This document shows positions 1,379 to 51,175 of a stretch of 64,000 nucleotides of DNA, one piece after another. The notes beneath the pieces are model-generated. The model worked only from the letters and a program-made list of their open reading frames with translations, was not told the origin of the DNA and ran no database searches. This DNA is from Microbacterium sp. LWH3-1.2 (GTDB lineage Bacteria > Actinomycetota > Actinomycetes > Actinomycetales > Microbacteriaceae). The position numbers and the translations under genes were made by a program. Position 1 is the first letter of the stretch; each line of letters starts with the position of its first letter. The stretch lies in assembly GCF_040675855.1 (NCBI RefSeq), contig NZ_JBEGIK010000001.1, positions 3,100,001 through 3,164,000 on the forward strand, given 5' to 3'.

Positions 1379-2898
1379 TCGAGGCCCTCCACGTCGCTGA
1401 GCCCTCCGGCCAGTTCCACGAAGCGCTGCTCGAGCGTCAGCTCGCCGCGCACCTCGTCGACGGTGCCTTCCGCGAGCACCTGGCCGGCCACGATGACCGC
1501 GACGCGTGTGCAGACGCGCTCGACGAGGTCCATGCCGTGGCTCGAGAGGATCACCGTGCCGCCGTGAGCGACGTAGGTGGAGAGGATGTCGAGGATGATC
1601 GCACTCGAGACGGGATCGACCGCCTCGAACGGCTCGTCGAGCACGAGCAGCCGCGGCGAGTGGATGAGCGCTCCCGCGAGCATGACCTTCTTGAGCATGC
1701 CCGCGGAGTAGTCCGAGACGCTGCGGCCCAGTGCGTCCTCGAGATCGAACGCGCGCGCGAGGTCGGCGGTGCGGCTCTCGACGATCGCGGGTGGAAGCTT
1801 GCGCAGCACGCCGTAGTAGTAGAGGAGCTGACGGCCGGTGAGGCGGTCGAAGGTGCGGAGCCGATCGGGCAGGACGCCCATGAGCTTCTTGGCCGCGAGC
1901 GGCTTGGCCGCGGCATCCACTCCGCCGACATGGATGGTGCCGCGATCAGGCTCGAGCAGGCCCGCGATCATCGAGAGCGTGGTCGTCTTGCCGGCGCCGT
2001 TCGGGCCGACGAGGCCGTAGAACGTACCGGCCGGGATCGTCAGGTCGATGCCGTCGACGGCGTGGGTGCTGCCGAAGCTCTTGCTGACACCGCGGAGCAC
2101 GAGGGCGTTCCCGGATGCTGCGACCGCTGATGCGGCGCCGTCCAGCGAGACGGCGGCGGCCAGCGCCTCGGGGTCGACGGTCGTCACGGGCTCGGGCACG
2201 GCGAGGGGCGCGGGCGTCAGGTTCGCGGGCTCAGCCACGGGCGCGGACTCGACCACGGGCTCAGCATCGGCCACCGTCACGGTTTCGGCAAGAGTCGCGT
2301 GCCCGGCGTCCGCCTCGGGATCGGTGGGGCGTTCGCCGTCGACCGCGAGTGCGGGTGCGATCTCAGCCCCGGGCGCAGTCGCCGGTTCGGGCGCGATCTC
2401 GGGTCCGGGGGCGACCCCGGGTTCCGGCGCGAGCGCAGCTTCAGCATCGACCACGACGTCGCGCCCTGCCGCAGCTTCGGCCTCGGCGGCGGCGACCGCG
2501 TTCGTCGCCTCCTCGTGGACGGACTCCGCGTCTTCGACGGAGGGAGCCTCCGCAGCATCCGTCGGCGCATCATCGTGAGCTGCGGGCAGCGGCGGGCGCG
2601 GGGGCACGGCGATGCTGGCAGCGGCGCTCGCCGCGAGTTCGAGATCGCTCGGCAGAGGAGGCGGAGGCCCCGGATCCGCAACGGGAGCCGGCTCCGGCTT
2701 CGAGGCAGCCGGTGTGCGCTTCTTGCGCGGAGCGGCCCCCGCCTTCGAGCTGTCGTCGGTGCGCGGCTTGCGCGGCGGGCGGCGGGGCTTCTCGGGAGCC
2801 GGTGAGACCGTGTCTGCGAGGCGTACGACGCGCGCGCTGGAGTGACGGTCCGGCTCTTCCGGATCGATGTCATTCGGCACCGGGAGGGAGGCTGTCAC
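1354..2898 (-). CDS. ABC transporter ATP-binding protein with long disordered N-terminus
   Basis: 514 aa. The last ~250 residues are a standard ABC ATPase: Walker A GPNGAGKTTT near residue 296, signature YSAGMLKK, Walker B LLVLDEP followed by the D-loop, and a switch histidine in SSHGMDL. The first ~260 residues are unlike a normal ABC subunit (about 220-310 aa in total): a basic Lys/Arg/Pro segment, then a long Ala/Pro/Glu/Val-rich acidic stretch without predicted fold. The frame is continuous with the ATPase and has the same codon bias, so I annotate the full length, but a downstream start near residue 260 cannot be excluded. The product should power the permease encoded immediately downstream with a 25-bp overlap. 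Substrate unknown. Confidence 0.88.
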   Translation of the reverse strand: MTASLPVPNDIDPEEPDRHSSARVVRLADTVSPAPEKPRRPPRKPRTDDSSKAGAAPRKKRTPAASKPEPAPVADPGPPPPLPSDLELAASAAASIAVPPRPPLPAAHDDAPTDAAEAPSVEDAESVHEEATNAVAAAEAEAAAGRDVVVDAEAALAPEPGVAPGPEIAPEPATAPGAEIAPALAVDGERPTDPEADAGHATLAETVTVADAEPVVESAPVAEPANLTPAPLAVPEPVTTVDPEALAAAVSLDGAASAVAASGNALVLRGVSKSFGSTHAVDGIDLTIPAGTFYGLVGPNGAGKTTTLSMIAGLLEPDRGTIHVGGVDAAAKPLAAKKLMGVLPDRLRTFDRLTGRQLLYYYGVLRKLPPAIVESRTADLARAFDLEDALGRSVSDYSAGMLKKVMLAGALIHSPRLLVLDEPFEAVDPVSSAIILDILSTYVAHGGTVILSSHGMDLVERVCTRVAVIVAGQVLAEGTVDEVRGELTLEQRFVELAGGLSDVEGLEWLHTFSD

Positions 2899-3093
2899 TA
2901 CACCAACGTATCAAGCGGGCCCGACGGCGAGGCGGTTCGTCTCGCCGCGTCGCGGCATTCACGTTATGTCACAACTCTGCAACGGGAGGCGCTCATTATG
3001 CGCCTTCCCAGGCCCCGTCGCTACCATGGTCGAGGCACGAAGGGGTGTCGCGCCGGCGAACCGGCAGTGAATCACGCACTTCAGGAGCAGATT

Positions 3094-3786
3094 TTGACCC
3101 TTCAGACCGTCATCCTCGCAGCCGGAATGGGCTCGCGCCTCGGCCGCAGCCTGCCCAAGCCCCTCACGGAACTCGGCGACGGCCGCAGCATCATGCAGCA
3201 GCAGCACGACAACATCCGTGCCACCTTCGGCCGCGAAGCCAAGATCACCACGGTCGTCGGCTACCGCGCCGAGACCATCGTCGAGGCGTTTCCCGACGTC
3301 GACTACGTCTACAACGACCGTTACGACCAGACGAACACCTCCAAGAGCCTCTTGCGCGCGCTGTCGAAGACGGGGAAGGGCGGCGTCCTCTGGATGAACG
3401 GCGACGTCGTCTTCGACCCGCGCGTCCTCGGGCGCGCGATCGAGCTCATCGAGCGCGACCAGTCGTTCGTCACGGTCAACACGTCCAAGGTGAGCGACGA
3501 AGAGGTCAAGTACACCGTCACGTCCGAGGGCTACATCAACGAGCTCTCGAAGACGGTCAAGGGCGGCATCGGCGAGGCCGTGGGCATCAACTACATCTCG
3601 AGCCGCGACAAGAAGGCGTTCATGCGCCACCTGACCCGCGTCGACGATCAGGACTACTTCGAGCGCGGGCTCGAGCTCGCGATCGCCGAGGACGGTGTGC
3701 TGCTCGAGCCGCTCGACATCTCCGACCTGTATGCCGTCGAGGTGGACTTCGCCGAGGACCTGGAGCGCGCGAACCTCTTCGTCTGA
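3094..3786 (+). CDS. Sugar-phosphate/choline-phosphate nucleotidyltransferase-like protein
   Basis: 230 aa. The N-terminus VILAAGMGSRLG followed by LPKPL is the nucleotide-binding signature GxGxR...PK of the RmlA/LicC-type NTP transferase fold, and GDVVFDPR supplies the metal-binding Asp. The family joins a sugar- or alcohol-phosphate to NTP, giving an activated NDP precursor for cell-surface glycans. I chose TTG at 3094 because AGGAG sits 6-7 bases upstream and the catalytic motif begins directly after it; an in-frame GTG at 3067 and longer frames lack a comparable ribosome binding site. The gene stands alone and ends in a strong hairpin. Its substrate cannot be read from sequence; nearby CDP-glycerol-type transferases make an envelope-polymer role plausible, which is inference. 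Confidence 0.82.
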   Translation: MTLQTVILAAGMGSRLGRSLPKPLTELGDGRSIMQQQHDNIRATFGREAKITTVVGYRAETIVEAFPDVDYVYNDRYDQTNTSKSLLRALSKTGKGGVLWMNGDVVFDPRVLGRAIELIERDQSFVTVNTSKVSDEEVKYTVTSEGYINELSKTVKGGIGEAVGINYISSRDKKAFMRHLTRVDDQDYFERGLELAIAEDGVLLEPLDISDLYAVEVDFAEDLERANLFV

Positions 3787-3801
3787 TCTTCTGTCTGTGT
3801 G

Positions 3802-3835
3802 AACGTCGGCCGGGGTGTCAACCCCGGCCGACGTT
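3802..3835 (+). terminator. Intrinsic-type hairpin after the nucleotidyltransferase gene
   Basis: A perfect 15-bp inverted repeat (3802-3816 with 3821-3835) and a 4-base GTCA loop start 16 bp after the stop codon. There is no T-tract, as is common in high-GC actinobacteria. It separates the nucleotidyltransferase gene from the next plus-strand gene. Confidence 0.85.
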
Positions 3836-3861
3836 CGGCATCTGCGCATAGGATCTCTGCG

Positions 3862-4794
3862 ATGACCGACAAGGTGCACCAGATCCACTCCCTGCCCGGC
3901 GACGCGCCATGGCACGGCGGACTGCCGCCCGTAGGCTCCGACGAGCATCCGTTCACCATCCGCGCGCTCGATCGCGTGCTCGCGATCCAGCGGCCGGTCG
4001 TGCTCGCCCACCTGCGCAGCATCCGGCTGCGCCACCCGGACGCCTCCCCGGCCGATATCGTCCGCATCCTCGAACGACGCTACCTCGCGGCAGTGACCAC
4101 CGGCGGTGCCGCGGTCGGCGCGACCGCCGTCGTGCCGGGGATCGGCACCGGCGTGACGCTCGCGCTCAGCGGCGTCGAGACCGTGGCCTTCCTCGAGGCG
4201 ACGACGCTCTTCGCGCAGTCGGTCACCGAGGTGCACGGCATCCCGGTGTCGGATCCCGAGCGTGCCCGCGCGCTCGTGCTGACGCTCATGCTGGGCAAGG
4301 AAGGCGTCGACCTCGTCGCGCAGCTCGCCGGGCAGGCAGCCGGGCGCGGTCCGACTCGCTCGGGATACTGGGGCGAGCTGATCACGAAGTCGCTCCCCCG
4401 GGCGGCCGTCGGACCGCTCGTCGACCGGCTCAAGACGACCTTCATCCGCCAGTTCGCCGCGCGCGGCGGCGCATCGTGGATCGGCAAGGCGCTGCCGTTC
4501 GGCATCGGCGCGGCGATCGGCGGCGCCGGCAACAACATCCTCGGCCGCCGAGTGCTCACCGGCTCCCGACGCGCGTTCGGCAGCCCGCCGCTGATCCTGC
4601 CTCCCGAGCTCGAGCCCCGTCCCGGCGCCGACCGGCTCGAACGGCTCGCAGGACGCGGCATCCGTCGCGCCGGAGAGGCCGTGGTCGGCGGCATCACGCG
4701 CGGCGCATCGGGGGCGCGGCGAATCACCGCGCGCGTGATCCGACGCACCCCCGACGCCATCGACGCCCCGACCGAGGACGACAAGCCTTCCTGA
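3862..4794 (+). CDS. Conserved-type hypothetical protein with hydrophobic glycine-rich segments
   Basis: 310 aa from the ATG at 3862 (AGGATC about 8 bases upstream). I do not recognise a named family with certainty. The N-terminal ~70 residues are soluble and charged (IRALDRVLAIQRPVVLAHLR). Residues ~75-110 contain a Gly/Ala-rich hydrophobic stretch (AAVGATAVVPGIGTGVTLAL) and there is another near residues 205-235 (PFGIGAAIGGAGNNILG); both resemble membrane-inserting or membrane-contacting helices. The C-terminal ~60 residues are Arg-rich. No catalytic motif is visible. It lies between a terminator and the maltokinase-like gene with its own upstream regulatory region, so nothing suggests an operon partner. 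Confidence 0.7.
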   Translation: MTDKVHQIHSLPGDAPWHGGLPPVGSDEHPFTIRALDRVLAIQRPVVLAHLRSIRLRHPDASPADIVRILERRYLAAVTTGGAAVGATAVVPGIGTGVTLALSGVETVAFLEATTLFAQSVTEVHGIPVSDPERARALVLTLMLGKEGVDLVAQLAGQAAGRGPTRSGYWGELITKSLPRAAVGPLVDRLKTTFIRQFAARGGASWIGKALPFGIGAAIGGAGNNILGRRVLTGSRRAFGSPPLILPPELEPRPGADRLERLAGRGIRRAGEAVVGGITRGASGARRITARVIRRTPDAIDAPTEDDKPS

Positions 4795-4886
4795 CGCCGT
4801 CCCCCCGATGCGCGGTGGGGTGAAAATGGCGGCATGCGGCGCAGGAGTCGGGCGAGAACGAGTAGGGCATGTGGTCCCCAGGCGGC

Positions 4887-4901
4887 ATGAAAGCGCTTGC
4901 T
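4887..4901. promoter_or_regulatory. LacI-family operator candidate upstream of the maltokinase-like gene
   Basis: ATGAAAGCGCTTGCT matches the palindromic LacI/GalR-type operator core (AAAGCGCTTT with central CG) except for one mismatch in the right arm. It lies 45 bp before the ATG at 4946. A second small palindrome, CGTGTC-ctc-GACACG (4903-4917), follows directly. Sugar-responsive repression of a maltokinase-type gene fits, but no LacI gene is in the window. Confidence 0.5.
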
Positions 4902-4945
4902 GCGTGTCCTCGACACGCACACGACCGCGGGCATACGCTCACAGT

Positions 4946-6334
4946 ATGGACAGCACGTTGGCGTGCCTTGCGGCGTGGATGCCGCGGCAGCGGTGGTACG
5001 CCGCAAAAGGGCGCCCGCCCAGCCTGCGCTTGCTCTCGTGGTGGGATCTCGGCGTCGGGGCCGGTGGACCGGAGGACGCGGACGCGGGGGCGCGCATCCG
5101 CACATTCCTCGTCGCGGACGAGGGTGCGCTGCCCGCCGTGCTGTACCAGATCCCGGTCGTCGAGCGCGCCACGGAGACCGTCGACGCCGACCCCGACCAC
5201 GTCATCGGGAGTCCGGTTCCGGGGACGACTTTCATCGACGGCCCGTTCGATCCCGCCTACGCGCAGGCGCTGCTGCGCCTCATCTCCCTCGGCGGCGCCG
5301 CGCACGGTCCGCAGACGACCGCGGTCGGGCGAGCAGCACCGTCGGGGCGGGCTCCCGAGCGAGCCACCTCGCGCGTCATCAGCGGCGAGCAGTCGAATAC
5401 ATCCCTCATCTATGAGGGCGACGGCGCCCCGGTGATCTGCAAGGTGTATCGCCAGCTGCATGCGGGCCTCAACCCCGATATCGAACTGCAGGAGGCGCTG
5501 GCCGGAGCCGGATCGCCGCACGTGCCGCGCCCGATCGGCTCCATCGAAGGGACGTGGCCCGACCTCACCACCGCTCACGGCACCGTGCGCGGGTCGCTCG
5601 CCTGCGCGCAGGAGTTCCTCCCGGGCGTCGAGGACGCGTGGCGCGTCGCACTCCAGGCCGCGGCGAGGGGCGACGACTTCCGCGATGAGGCTCGGGCTCT
5701 CGGCGCCGCGACGGCGGAGGTTCATCTCGCTCTCGCCGAGTGCTTCCCGACCCGCACGGCGACCGCGGCCGATCGTGAAGCGACGGCCGCCACATGGGAG
5801 CGGCGGTTCGCGATCGCGATGGCGGAGGTTCCCGACATCGCCGGTCAGCGGGATGCCGCGGCCGAGGTGTATCGCCGCGCACTCGAGGTGCCGTGGCCGC
5901 CGCTGCAGCGGGTCCACGGCGACTTCCACCTCGGGCAGGTGCTGCACTCCCCCGACCGTGGCTGGATCATGGTCGATTTCGAGGGCGAGCCCCTGCGCCC
6001 GATGGCGGAGCGCACGCAATCCGATCTCGCGCTCCGCGATGTCGCCGGCATGCTCCGCTCGTTCGACTATGTCGCGGGTTCACTCCGCCTCGACGATCCC
6101 GACCGCTCCGCGGATGCGGTGCTCTCCTGGGCGCGCGACGCCCGTGGAGCGTTCGTGGACGGATACGCGGCGTCGGCCGGCGGGCTCGACCCCCGGCATC
6201 CGCTGCTTGCCGCGCTCGAGCTGGACAAGGCTGTGTACGAGGCGATCTACGAGGCCCGCAACCGGCCGACGTGGGTGGCGATCCCGCTTCGTGCGATCGC
6301 TCGACTCGTCGAGCGTCCTGCCCCGGTGGCCTGA
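4946..6334 (+). CDS. Maltokinase-like sugar kinase (maltokinase N-terminal cap plus APH-type kinase fold)
   Basis: 462 aa. The N-terminus (WMPRQRWYAAKGR at ~11-22) is the signature of the maltokinase N-terminal cap domain. The kinase part has the ATP-lysine in ICKVYR (K166), the catalytic loop HGDFHLGQ (H324, D326) and the metal-binding VDFEGEP (D344). Maltokinases transfer phosphate from ATP to maltose, giving maltose 1-phosphate for GlgE alpha-glucan synthesis, with maltose supplied by TreS trehalose synthase. Neither treS nor glgE is in this window, although treS-mak or glgE neighbours are common, so glucose or another hexose is a possible alternative substrate. I chose ATG 4946 because the conserved cap starts immediately after it; the longer upstream frame is non-conserved in character and would run through the operator candidate. 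Confidence 0.8.
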   Translation: MDSTLACLAAWMPRQRWYAAKGRPPSLRLLSWWDLGVGAGGPEDADAGARIRTFLVADEGALPAVLYQIPVVERATETVDADPDHVIGSPVPGTTFIDGPFDPAYAQALLRLISLGGAAHGPQTTAVGRAAPSGRAPERATSRVISGEQSNTSLIYEGDGAPVICKVYRQLHAGLNPDIELQEALAGAGSPHVPRPIGSIEGTWPDLTTAHGTVRGSLACAQEFLPGVEDAWRVALQAAARGDDFRDEARALGAATAEVHLALAECFPTRTATAADREATAATWERRFAIAMAEVPDIAGQRDAAAEVYRRALEVPWPPLQRVHGDFHLGQVLHSPDRGWIMVDFEGEPLRPMAERTQSDLALRDVAGMLRSFDYVAGSLRLDDPDRSADAVLSWARDARGAFVDGYAASAGGLDPRHPLLAALELDKAVYEAIYEARNRPTWVAIPLRAIARLVERPAPVA

Positions 6335-48712: not shown

Positions 48713-49864
48713 TCACGCTGCCGCCACTCGCACTGCGGGCCCCACGTACCGCGCCGACGGGCGGATGATCTTCGGATCGCGAGCCTGCTCGAGGATGTGC
48801 GCCGTCCACCCGATCGTGCGCGCGACCGCGAACGTCGGCGTGAACATCGAGCGCGGGATCCCGCACTGCTCCATCACCAGCGCCGCCCAGAACTCGACGT
48901 TCGCGTGCAGCTCGCGGCCCGGCTTCGCTTCGGCCAGCAACCGCTCCGCGCTCTCCTCGAACCGCAGCGCGAGCTCGACGCGAGGCCCGCCGGTACGCCG
49001 CGCGACGCGCTTCATCAGCTCGGCACGCGGGTCGGCCGTGCGGTACACGGCGTGACCGAACCCCATGAGCCGGCGCCCGGCCGCGAGCTCGCCACGGATC
49101 CACGGCTCGATACCGTCCGCGTCGCCCACCGCATCGAGCCCGTCGAGAGCCCGCGACGGCGCCCCGCCGTGCAGGGGTCCGGCCAGCGCCCCGAGAGCGC
49201 CGACGAGGCAGGCGGCGGCATCTGCTCCCGTCGAGGCGATGACACGGGCGGTGAAGGTGGAGGCGTTGAAACCGTGGTCCATGACCGCGACGAGGTAGGC
49301 GGTCAGAGCGTTCTCGATCGCCTCGCCGGGCACGACGCCGGTGACCTGGTGCAGGTAGTTCGCGACGACTCCGCGATCATCCAGCACGGGCAGGGCGCCC
49401 TCCCCACGACCGCGCCGCCACAGCGCGCCCACAAGCACCGGTGTCGCCGCAGCCAGCGCGATCGCGTCGGCGAGACGCTCGTCCTGGTCGAGGTCGTAGA
49501 GCGGACGGATGCTGCGCCTCGCGCCGAGCAGCGGCCAGGCGGCCGCGAGCCCGGCGAGCACATCCGGCGTCGCCGACGACACCGCATCGACGACGACGTC
49601 AACGTCGGCGCTCCGCGCGGTGGTGGCATCGGCGATGCGGGCCGCGAACGCCGGGCGCGAGGCATCCGTCGCCGCCTCTCCGGTGACGAGGAGCTGCCAG
49701 GCGTCCTCGAAGCTCGCCGTCTCGGCCAGGTCGATCGCCGATCGATCCCGGTACTGGAGGAAGCCCTCTGCCCCGCGGACGTCGCTCACCGTGGTGTCGG
49801 CGACGGTCACGCCGGCGAGGCCGCGCGGCGCATCGATCGGGGCCGGGCGTGTCGTGCTGGTCAT
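48713..49864 (-). CDS. Citrate/2-methylcitrate synthase-family protein
   Basis: 383 aa from the ATG at 49864. Citrate-synthase motifs: VMDHGFNAST (H197), GPLHGGAPSRAL (H232) and FGHAVYRTADPR (H271). Where the catalytic Asp is normally found (NVDFY) it has ANVEFWAAL (E324), a substitution I associate with several actinobacterial paralogues. The family condenses acetyl-CoA or propionyl-CoA with oxaloacetate. No prpB or prpD genes are nearby, so a methylcitrate-cycle role is not supported by context. It is divergent from an HTH-fused paralogue with 111 bp between the starts; an operator-like repeat lies in that region. Confidence 0.88.
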   Translation of the reverse strand: MTSTTRPAPIDAPRGLAGVTVADTTVSDVRGAEGFLQYRDRSAIDLAETASFEDAWQLLVTGEAATDASRPAFAARIADATTARSADVDVVVDAVSSATPDVLAGLAAAWPLLGARRSIRPLYDLDQDERLADAIALAAATPVLVGALWRRGRGEGALPVLDDRGVVANYLHQVTGVVPGEAIENALTAYLVAVMDHGFNASTFTARVIASTGADAAACLVGALGALAGPLHGGAPSRALDGLDAVGDADGIEPWIRGELAAGRRLMGFGHAVYRTADPRAELMKRVARRTGGPRVELALRFEESAERLLAEAKPGRELHANVEFWAALVMEQCGIPRSMFTPTFAVARTIGWTAHILEQARDPKIIRPSARYVGPAVRVAAA

Positions 49865-49936
49865 GTCGGCTCCTTGCTCGGGGATCCAGGACGCGGCCGC
49901 GTCGGTCGGGCCTTCCCGCTACAGTCAGTGTCGTAA

Positions 49937-49971
49937 CTTGATCACGCTTTCGTCAATCTTGATCGGATCAA
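49937..49971. promoter_or_regulatory. Operator-like repeat in front of the HTH-citrate synthase gene
   Basis: CTTGATC occurs at 49937-49943 and again at 49958-49964, exactly 21 bp apart (two helical turns). The second copy is the left arm of a perfect palindrome TTGATC-G-GATCAA (49959-49971) that ends 4 bp before the GTG start. This AT-richer patch stands out from its surroundings and is the natural candidate site for the N-terminal HTH of the gene product. Confidence 0.6.
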
Positions 49972-49975
49972 TATC

Positions 49976-51175
49976 GTGAGCGATCTTCCCCGACTGACCG
50001 CGGCCGAGGCGGCCGCCCGCCTCGGCGTCAAACCCGAGTCGCTGTACGCCTACGTGTCACGAGGCCTGCTGTCGCGCGAGCGCGATGCCGCCGGCTCGTC
50101 GTTCGATCCGCTGGAGGTCGAGGCGTTCGCGCGACGACGCAGGCGCTCACCCGGAGCTGTCCCCGGTTCGCCGACCCCCGGCAGCCCGCTCATGGTGCTC
50201 GACACCCGGCTCGCTCATATCGACGACGACGAGCTGCACTATCGCGAGCGGTCGGCGGCGCAGCTGGCCCGCGACGCCTCGTTCGAGGACGTCGTGACCT
50301 GGGTGTGGGACGTCTCCACGCTCCGCGCTCCCTCACCCGCCGACGTCGCCGTCGCCCGGGGCACGATCGCGGCGCTGGGCCCGGCGGCCCGGCCGCTCGA
50401 CCGGCTTCTCGTCGCGGTGTCGGCCCTCGCAGCCACCGACCCGCTGCGCGATGATCCGGATCCGTCACAGCTTCTGCGCGCGGGCGCGCGGCTCGTGACG
50501 GGGCTGCCCGCCGCACTCGCCGTCGCCGACGAGCGTGCCAGCGTCGCGCAGACGCTGTGGCGGGCACTCGCTTCGCGCGATCTGCCCGGCGGATCCCGGC
50601 TTATCGACGCGGCGCTGGTGCTCGTCATCGACCACGACCTCGCCGCCTCGACCCTCGCCGCGCGCGTCGCCGCCTCGGCGCGCGCGTCCGGATACGCGGT
50701 CGTCACCGCCGCACTCGGCGCGTTCGATGCGCCGCTGCACGGCACCGCGAGCGGGGCGGCGGCGCACCTGCTCCGCGCCATCCGCGATGGCGACGACCCC
50801 GCGACAGCCATCGCGCGCACCGTCCGCGCCGGGCGCAGCGGCGTCCCGGGCTTCGGCCAGCCGCTGTATGCCGGCGGCGACATGCGCGCGAGGGTGCTCT
50901 TCGAGCTGCTGCGCGACGCGCCGGAGAGCGCAGGCGTGCTCGCCGCGGTGGACGCCGTCGCGGACGAGGTGGCGCGCCGCGCCGACATGCGGCCGAACCT
51001 CGACCTCGCGTTGGCCGCTCTCACCCTCTGGGCGGAGATGCCCGACGACGCCGCGTCGGTGATCTTCGCGATCGGGCGAATCGTCGGCTGGATCTCGCAC
51101 GCGGTGGACGAGTACGACGAACGCCCGATGCGCCTGCGACCGCGGGGGCGCTACGTGGGTCCTGCTCCCGAGTGA
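49976..51175 (+). CDS. Helix-turn-helix/citrate synthase fusion protein
   Basis: 399 aa from GTG 49976. Residues ~5-55 are a MerR/excisionase-type HTH (LTAAEAAARLGVKPESLYAYVSRGLLSRERDAAG), then a Pro/Arg linker, then a citrate-synthase domain (~72-395): VIDHDLAAST (H220), APLHGTASG (H255), GFGQPLYAGGD and RPNLDLALAAL (D343). The second catalytic His (GFGH in active enzymes, and in the divergent neighbour) is Gln (Q295). The combination suggests a regulator that senses a CoA thioester or citrate-like ligand rather than an efficient synthase; this is inference. It is divergent from a second family member, and its 3' end overlaps the convergent hydrolase gene by 25 bp. Confidence 0.87.
   Translation: MSDLPRLTAAEAAARLGVKPESLYAYVSRGLLSRERDAAGSSFDPLEVEAFARRRRRSPGAVPGSPTPGSPLMVLDTRLAHIDDDELHYRERSAAQLARDASFEDVVTWVWDVSTLRAPSPADVAVARGTIAALGPAARPLDRLLVAVSALAATDPLRDDPDPSQLLRAGARLVTGLPAALAVADERASVAQTLWRALASRDLPGGSRLIDAALVLVIDHDLAASTLAARVAASARASGYAVVTAALGAFDAPLHGTASGAAAHLLRAIRDGDDPATAIARTVRAGRSGVPGFGQPLYAGGDMRARVLFELLRDAPESAGVLAAVDAVADEVARRADMRPNLDLALAALTLWAEMPDDAASVIFAIGRIVGWISHAVDEYDERPMRLRPRGRYVGPAPE

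Follow-up and report, generated by a model that had tools for sequence, protein, structure and literature searches.

Does a citrate synthase that carries a DNA-binding domain act as an enzyme or as a gene switch? The question is raised by a gene at positions 49976 to 51175 of a 64,000-nucleotide (nt) stretch of the Microbacterium sp. LWH3-1.2 genome (contig NZ_JBEGIK010000001.1), referred to here as the window. The gene encodes a winged helix-turn-helix (HTH) fused to a citrate-synthase domain, diverges from a second citrate synthase gene, citA, and is preceded by a phased repeat, an arrangement noted in an initial annotation of the sequence and confirmed by the open reading frames (ORFs), Pfam matches and a structural model. 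That annotation also proposed that the fusion is an autoregulator, controls the facing gene and uses an enzyme fold as a sensor, and comparison across loci supports these proposals, with corrections to some of the details on which they rested. With a probability of roughly 0.8, the fusion is a one-component transcription regulator with a citrate-synthase fold as its sensor. Publications are cited below from partial texts. The features of the fusion gene are:

49976..51175, plus strand: HTH-citrate synthase fusion gene, 399 amino acids, GTG start (ORF; Pfam PF00285, 168.9 bits; AlphaFold2 predicted local distance difference test (pLDDT) score 92.2)
49976..50143, plus strand: winged HTH, residues 1-56 (helices 9-16, 20-28 and 45-56; β-wing 35-43)
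50192..51145, plus strand: citrate synthase domain, residues 73-390
50858..50860, plus strand: Gln295 codon, at the His position of GFGH in canonical citrate synthases (alignments)

Domain organization and ancestry of the fusion

In the AlphaFold2 model, a whole citrate-synthase fold is joined to the winged HTH, of which residues 11-50 have pLDDT values of 93-94. Residues 57-71 are disordered (pLDDT <50) and no coiled-coil helix follows the HTH in this model. Structure comparison places the HTH fold nearest to those of BldC, SoxR and other MerR-type domains. HTH_17 matches 60 of 62 aligned members at E<=0.01, the HTH of the window fusion itself falling below the Pfam cut-offs, and sub-threshold matches to TIGR01764 excise and HTH_BldC were obtained with three and one, respectively, of five relatives tested. 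The structure match lists for the whole model (VIA, Foldseek) contain citrate synthases only, this one domain filling them. Against the NCBIfam citrate synthase models, the best score of the fusion is 138.2 bits, where the cut-off is 421.3, and the five relatives likewise remain under every listed NCBIfam cut-off.

In a tree of 59 chosen rows, from which plasmid loci L175, L177, L185, L188 and L190 were left out and in which the kept columns include the HTH, a branch with support of 100/100 sets apart the 35 HTH-citrate synthases, which come from three phyla, and 19 actinobacterial CitA proteins form one group (100/98) with the enzymes that face the fusions in two Agrobacterium loci. This tree does not contradict a single fusion event. 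An origin of the fusion as a recent local duplicate of citA is ruled out, the 35 HTH-citrate synthases and 21 CitA-type proteins being on separate branches. In the Microlunatus speluncae record (L045, 5241 onward), an early in-frame stop breaks the fusion gene.

An operator-like array upstream of the fusion gene

An operator-like array, TTGAT-n9-GTCAA-n2-TTGAT-n3-ATCAA, is present at 49938-49971, with its end 4 nt upstream of the GTG of the fusion. Its elements, and those of the putative citA promoter that it overlaps, are:

49952..49971, plus strand: core operator GTCAATCTTGATCGGATCAA (GTCAA-n2-TTGAT-n3-ATCAA)
49938..49942, plus strand: upstream half-site TTGAT, 21 base pairs (bp) in phase with the central TTGAT
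49951..49956, minus strand: inferred citA -35 box TTGACG, coinciding with the GTCAA half-site (sequence reading and column counts)
49927..49932, minus strand: inferred citA -10 box GACACT, 18-nt spacer (column conservation)

The array was followed through 124 actinobacterial loci (128 minus the duplicates L103, L017, L018 and L019), 115 of which have a divergent CitA gene within 400 nt of the fusion start. The sequence GTCAANNTTGAY is located upstream of the fusion in 113 of the 124 loci and in 3 of 2910 control windows taken from these loci, and the longer GTCAANNTTGATNNNATCAA in 99 loci and a single control window, an enrichment that is inflated because the control windows are mostly coding DNA. 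When RTCAA is allowed, RTCAANNTTGAY is present upstream of the fusion in 114 of the 124. The third half-site and the TTGAY positioned 9 nt before the core provide a better test, as these positions were not used to find the core. The third half-site, outside the anchoring, lies at exactly 3 nt in 109 of the 114 loci, with a background of ~1.4% for any RTCAA within 16 nt, and TTGAY occurs at the exact 9-nt gap, equivalent to 21-bp phasing, in 69 of the 114. Overall, conservation is highest in the part of the array formed by GTCAANNTTGAY with ATCAA after it. The initial annotation had drawn attention to a pair of CTTGATC repeats 21 bp apart; their phasing recurs, but the first of them is the less conserved half-site. 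Base counts per column, made with 113 loci picked by the core itself, document conservation of the second A (92/113) and last T (93/113) of the -10 hexamer, columns -21 and -25. A generic scan for promoters and terminators found none, including the inferred citA promoter.

The GTCAA core is present at 108 and absent from 7 loci with an adjacent CitA, and present at 5 and absent from 4 without one. Where CitA is not adjacent, the arrangements differ. L062 has an ATCAA variant of the site, no CitA was found within the short sequence available for L039, CitA is fragmented in L112 and, in L105, is located elsewhere in the genome without a site. In L064 and L111, citA and the fusion have been parted; in L064 they are 4.1 kb apart with several ORFs between them, and each gene has its own site, the two sites differing in sequence. 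The intervening ORFs of L064 (Streptomyces fuscichromogenes, 1876-5986) resemble, by eye, genes for a sugar isomerase, a Gfo/Idh-type oxidoreductase and a ROK-type regulator. A metagenome-assembled Streptomyces genome (L046) has a tandem pair of operator-like copies upstream of one fusion gene.

The site beside HTH-citrate synthases with other neighbours

Relatives of the fusion were found in 39 plasmid records, of which 22 were opened, 2 from Actinomycetota, 2 from Deinococcota, 1 from Bacillota and the others from Pseudomonadota. The core is present within 190 nt upstream of the gene in 17 of these 22 loci and in 2 of 938 control windows. Both control-window sites (L185, L190) precede the first gene of a same-strand run in which the HTH gene comes last, as does a site in L173, the runs in L173 and L185 being annotated and that in L190 assigned by analogy. 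When such operon-head sites are counted, 20 of the 22 plasmid loci have the core, the last three having been assigned after they were seen. The last half-site is at 7 nt in 14 of the 20, not at 3 nt. A Paenibacillus locus (L176) is an exception with neither the HTH nor the site. The initial annotation had asked whether homologues with the HTH lack the repeat, and with a site in 114 of 124 actinobacterial and 20 of 22 plasmid loci the outcome is largely in favour of its proposal. In the Acidovorax carolinensis plasmid locus L174 (4956-6257), other inverted repeats are located upstream of the HTH-citrate synthase.

The facing gene is annotated as a citrate synthase in L169, L180, L188 and L189, a CoA (coenzyme A) transferase in L170, L171 and L186 and a pyruvate carboxyltransferase in L172 and L183. 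A 2-hydroxyacid dehydrogenase operon faces the HTH gene in L178 and L182, a GudP transporter gene followed by a 2-hydroxyacid dehydrogenase gene in L181 and a ring-hydroxylating dioxygenase gene in L174, a locus without the site. The HTH gene is in a same-strand run with others in L173 and L185, and seven plasmid loci are without annotation. In three actinobacterial genomes with no CitA at E<=1e-90 (L191, L192, L193), the neighbour of the fusion is an HMGL/homocitrate-synthase-like gene, with the site between the two; that of L192 matches an HMGL-like Pfam model above its cut-off and a homocitrate synthase NCBIfam model below its cut-off, and those of L191 and L193 were assigned by likeness of sequence. 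Across these loci the site goes with the HTH protein, whichever gene is next to it, as would be expected of a regulator's own operator.

Genome-wide occurrence of the site

A strict 20-mer form of the site occurs once in the genome that contains the window. Across 296 genomes of the class, 14 carry it, at 15 sites in all. All 14 belong to the 53 genomes called fusion-like at >=239 bits, some of them via the citrate-synthase part alone, and none to the 243 genomes without a fusion-like match. Apart from the one in the window's genome, there are 14 sites, of which 13 precede a fusion gene. The other (G400) precedes a citA copy that lies 20 kb away from the fusion; the fusion also has a site and, by eye, still has a citA-start-like sequence beside it, so that the separation may be a recent rearrangement.

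CitA and a fusion-like match occur together in 45 of the 296 genomes, a fusion without CitA in 8 and CitA without a fusion in 1 (G443), where the fusion is cut by a contig end and the site is present. Of the eight with only a fusion, three have another facing gene and the site (G284, G344, G205), one has a fragmented citA and the site (G453), two have no site (G216, G308), one has a partial array (G312) and one is at a contig edge (G326). In G453 (L160, 3741-4291), the facing citA is in two frame-shifted pieces and the fusion and operator are intact. No second regulon target was recognised at up to 3 mismatches in the window's own and 12 further fusion-bearing genomes, sites with 2-3 mismatches being left unannotated.

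Extra citA copies in G298 (C7:85698-86747; L158) and G400 (C53:769844-770875; L157) match only from residue 33-39 onward and have no operator in the stretches read. A similar GATTCGACCCC-type sequence precedes both, as if they were carried by a mobile element.

The facing enzyme and the pocket of the fusion

The proposed target and its diagnostic residue are:

48713..49864, minus strand: divergent CitA-type citrate synthase, 383 amino acids (ORF; Pfam, 320.2 bits)
48893..48895, minus strand: Glu324 codon (NVEFW), at the catalytic-Asp position (alignments)

By sequence, the best Protein Data Bank chain for the facing enzyme is Bacillus subtilis citrate synthase (2c6x, 247.6 bits); Mycobacterium tuberculosis CitA (8giw) scores 222.3 bits, and NCBIfam NF009005, at 329.9 bits, narrowly misses its cut-off of 332. 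The alignments place NVEF, with Glu at the Asp position, in both 2c6x and 8giw, and Glu is at the Asp362 position in all 116 informative divergent partners. Given this invariance and the B. subtilis and M. tuberculosis proteins, the Glu reads as a mark of the CitA subfamily and not of function loss, and decay of the facing enzyme, whose Glu is invariant and present in solved CitA proteins, is ruled out. Overexpression of M. tuberculosis citA has been reported to increase acetate flux into the tricarboxylic acid cycle (PMC3101192). No paper on a D375E citrate synthase was found in the open-licence literature.

His220, His255, Arg304, Asp343, Arg368 and Arg388 of the fusion are invariant in the 62 aligned members. 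Numbers such as His264, His305 and Asp362 follow Escherichia coli citrate synthase. In these terms, His229, His264, Arg314, Asp362 and the RP-motif Arg have equivalents in all 123 informative fusions, the early-broken fusion of L045 and the CitA of L047 being uninformative. In 122 of the 123, Ala replaces the Asn of DHxxN. At the His305 position, 102 fusions have His, 20 have Gln, mostly in the window's own family, and 1 has Met, so that the window fusion, with Gln295 in place of the second His, lacks the His-His-Asp triad. Both substitutions singled out in the initial annotation, Gln in the fusion and Glu in the facing enzyme, are indeed present, but the first does not define the family and the second is a CitA trait and not a lesion. 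Gln295 as the hallmark of a regulator is ruled out by its restriction to 20 of the 123, and it reads as a clade feature, with the binding pocket kept in the fusions. The position of Gln295 is probably that of a His which has been mutated in Caulobacter CitA. Replacement of that oxaloacetate-binding His abolished complementation (PMC7083601), and on these grounds the window fusion probably has little enzymatic activity, if any. Three more citrate-synthase genes are present in the genome.

Proposed regulation and competing explanations

From the sequence comparisons we infer DNA binding, a ligand class and a sign of control for the fusion. Its MerR/Xis-like winged HTH would bind TTGAY...RTCAA-n2-TTGAY...RTCAA within the promoter region that the two genes share. 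The bound form is probably a dimer, or two dimers, joined through the citrate-synthase domains, with binding predicted within 49930-49976 and dependent on GTCAANNTTGAT. That the fusion binds the core site is predicted with great confidence, and that it controls the adjacent gene with only a little less. In its default state, the protein probably represses both its own gene and citA, as the array abuts the fusion start codon and covers the likely citA -35 box; with the array ending so close to the GTG, bound protein should block expression of the fusion. Repression is nevertheless favoured only modestly as the sign of control. A ligand-sensing role of the citrate-synthase fold is likely, and the retained His/Arg/Asp pocket and the nature of the genes faced point to a 2-oxo acid, a tricarboxylate and/or an acyl-CoA as the probable ligand. 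Domain closure on this ligand would alter DNA binding and so release, or activate, citA. A more ambitious version, offered tentatively and at rather less than even odds, is that the HTH-citrate synthases of several phyla form one undescribed transcription factor family, with an entire citrate synthase as the coincidence detector of a 2-oxo acid and an acyl-CoA, or of their product. Closure would move the HTHs on TTGAY-RTCAA-n2-TTGAY-RTCAA, the genes controlled would make or use such acids (CitA, homocitrate-synthase-like proteins, CoA transferases, 2-hydroxyacid dehydrogenases), slow turnover would reset the triad-bearing members and the Gln295 clade would be a pure sensor.

Several observations weigh against a regulator of this kind. 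The seven loci with an adjacent CitA that lack the core, all from one genus (L115, L118, L120, L122, L123, L127, L128), have a rearranged array with TTGAT before GTCAA; L162 has only a partial array, TTGAT-n3-GTCAA; and L091, L116 and L124 have neither a standard site nor a facing citrate synthase in the available sequence. The Acidovorax locus L174 has the HTH, no standard site and changes in the His264 and Asp362 columns. The strict 20-mer is absent from 39 of the 53 fusion-like genomes; in L113, L114 and L126, from genomes without it, the last gap of the array differs. The named loci are the best 80 of 573, mostly from Streptomyces and Microbacterium, and the looseness of the fusion-like calls and the mostly coding controls count on the same side. 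Other regulators act at the promoter region of the pair, as discussed below, and enzyme activity is possible in most relatives, because the triad is intact in 102 of 123. The fusion might accordingly be mainly an enzyme, a citrate or related synthase that represses its own gene, with turnover setting its DNA-binding state as in a trigger enzyme. The complete fold, the invariant pocket Arg and His residues and the Asp kept in 123 of 123 fit such a protein. We consider it unlikely, given the Gln at the GFGH His in the window, the loss of complementation by the Caulobacter His mutant (PMC7083601), the almost universal Ala in DHxxN and the three further citrate-synthase genes.

If the protein is a regulator of the proposed kind, it could be a MerR-like activator that remains on the DNA and switches on citA, or the fusion gene itself, once a ligand closes the domain. 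This would agree with the nearest HTH folds, BldC, SoxR and other MerR-type domains, but it is doubtful, as residues 57-71 are disordered where a coiled-coil helix would follow the HTH and an array at a start codon and over the inferred citA -35 box fits occlusion better. Citrate synthases are dimers, and the fusion might alternatively form a hetero-oligomer with CitA and act as its regulatory subunit, besides or instead of binding DNA. Pairing within 400 nt in 115 of 124 loci and co-occurrence in genomes are in keeping with this improbable arrangement, which leaves the conserved site and the loci with CoA transferase and homocitrate-synthase-like partners unexplained and involves proteins from separate deep clades. 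Most Streptomyces loci examined here contain the divergent pair known as SCO5831 (citA3) and SCO5832 (citA4) in S. coelicolor and slnwt_1427/1428 in S. albus, citrate synthase genes with a shared intergenic region; we take SCO5831 to be the HTH member. MtrA binds a probe with a predicted site, TTGACTTAACTGTCCA, from between SCO5831 and SCO5832, both of which are expressed more highly at late times without MtrA (PMC12323332), and RspA1 binds the promoters of the S. albus pair (PMC7411085). The rise of citA3 and citA4 without MtrA indicates that the region integrates further signals. It is very improbable that the site is owned by such a global regulator (MtrA, GlnR, RspA1), with the HTH-citrate synthase a mere neighbour. 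The strict 20-mer is found in 0 of 243 class genomes without a fusion-like match, the core accompanies HTH-citrate synthases with different facing genes in Proteobacteria and Deinococcus, and the reported MtrA site resembles TTGATTCGACTGTCCA, a stretch that precedes the core in Streptomyces loci (L085, for example), and not the core.

Relation to known systems

An old enzyme shape thus seems to have been turned into a metabolite sensor, since a DNA-binding head and the same motif by the gene or operon head recur in several phyla despite differing neighbouring genes. At least 2958 and at least 7951 proteins were matched in two protein searches, the HTH being established for part of them only, and many predicted relatives are named, for example, citrate synthase. 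Annotations and metabolic models may treat them as enzymes. Should the regulator reading hold, many would instead be transcription factors acting on organic-acid and acyl-CoA metabolism through an operator that can be predicted, so that their targets could be read from sequence, and they would supply existing sensors for 2-oxo acids or CoA thioesters. They would also show clearly how an enzyme of central metabolism can become a gene switch, which in some lineages would control the citrate synthase opposite it.

Citrate synthases with related arrangements or roles have been described. The Streptomyces pairs are called (putative) citrate synthases or citrate synthase-like, and no HTH, operator or regulatory role is mentioned in the partial texts of PMC12323332, PMC9739823, PMC8981147, PMC7324645 and PMC7411085; within this literature on the pairs, slnwt_1428 is reported to be distinctive from traditional citrate synthases. 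A catalysis-independent regulatory role has been documented for Caulobacter CitA, as proposed here for the fusion, but a text search of that paper found no mention of a helix-turn-helix or DNA binding (PMC7083601). In Caulobacter crescentus, complementation of E. coli gltA is seen with CitB but not with CitC, and the two have consecutive locus tags (PMC7083601); citB and citC are possibly the same kind of pair.

As in B. subtilis citA, the proposed target is CitA-type, with Glu at the Asp position (2c6x), and has a divergent regulator gene. The B. subtilis regulator CitR is a LysR protein, whereas the regulator proposed here is itself built on a citrate synthase. The fusion resembles MerR, BldC and excisionase winged-HTH proteins in its HTH fold but differs in having no coiled coil after the HTH and a citrate-synthase effector domain. 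No description of an HTH-citrate synthase regulator was found in the open-licence literature, which mostly excludes subscription journals. A helix-turn-helix combined with a complete metabolic enzyme fold as the sensor is familiar from MocR/GabR, with an aminotransferase fold, and from other one-component regulators. With MocR/GabR the fusion would have in common an HTH on an enzyme-fold sensor and would differ in fold, ligand class and operator. The joining of an HTH to an enzyme fold is already known in kind, and the operator of this fusion is unusually well marked.
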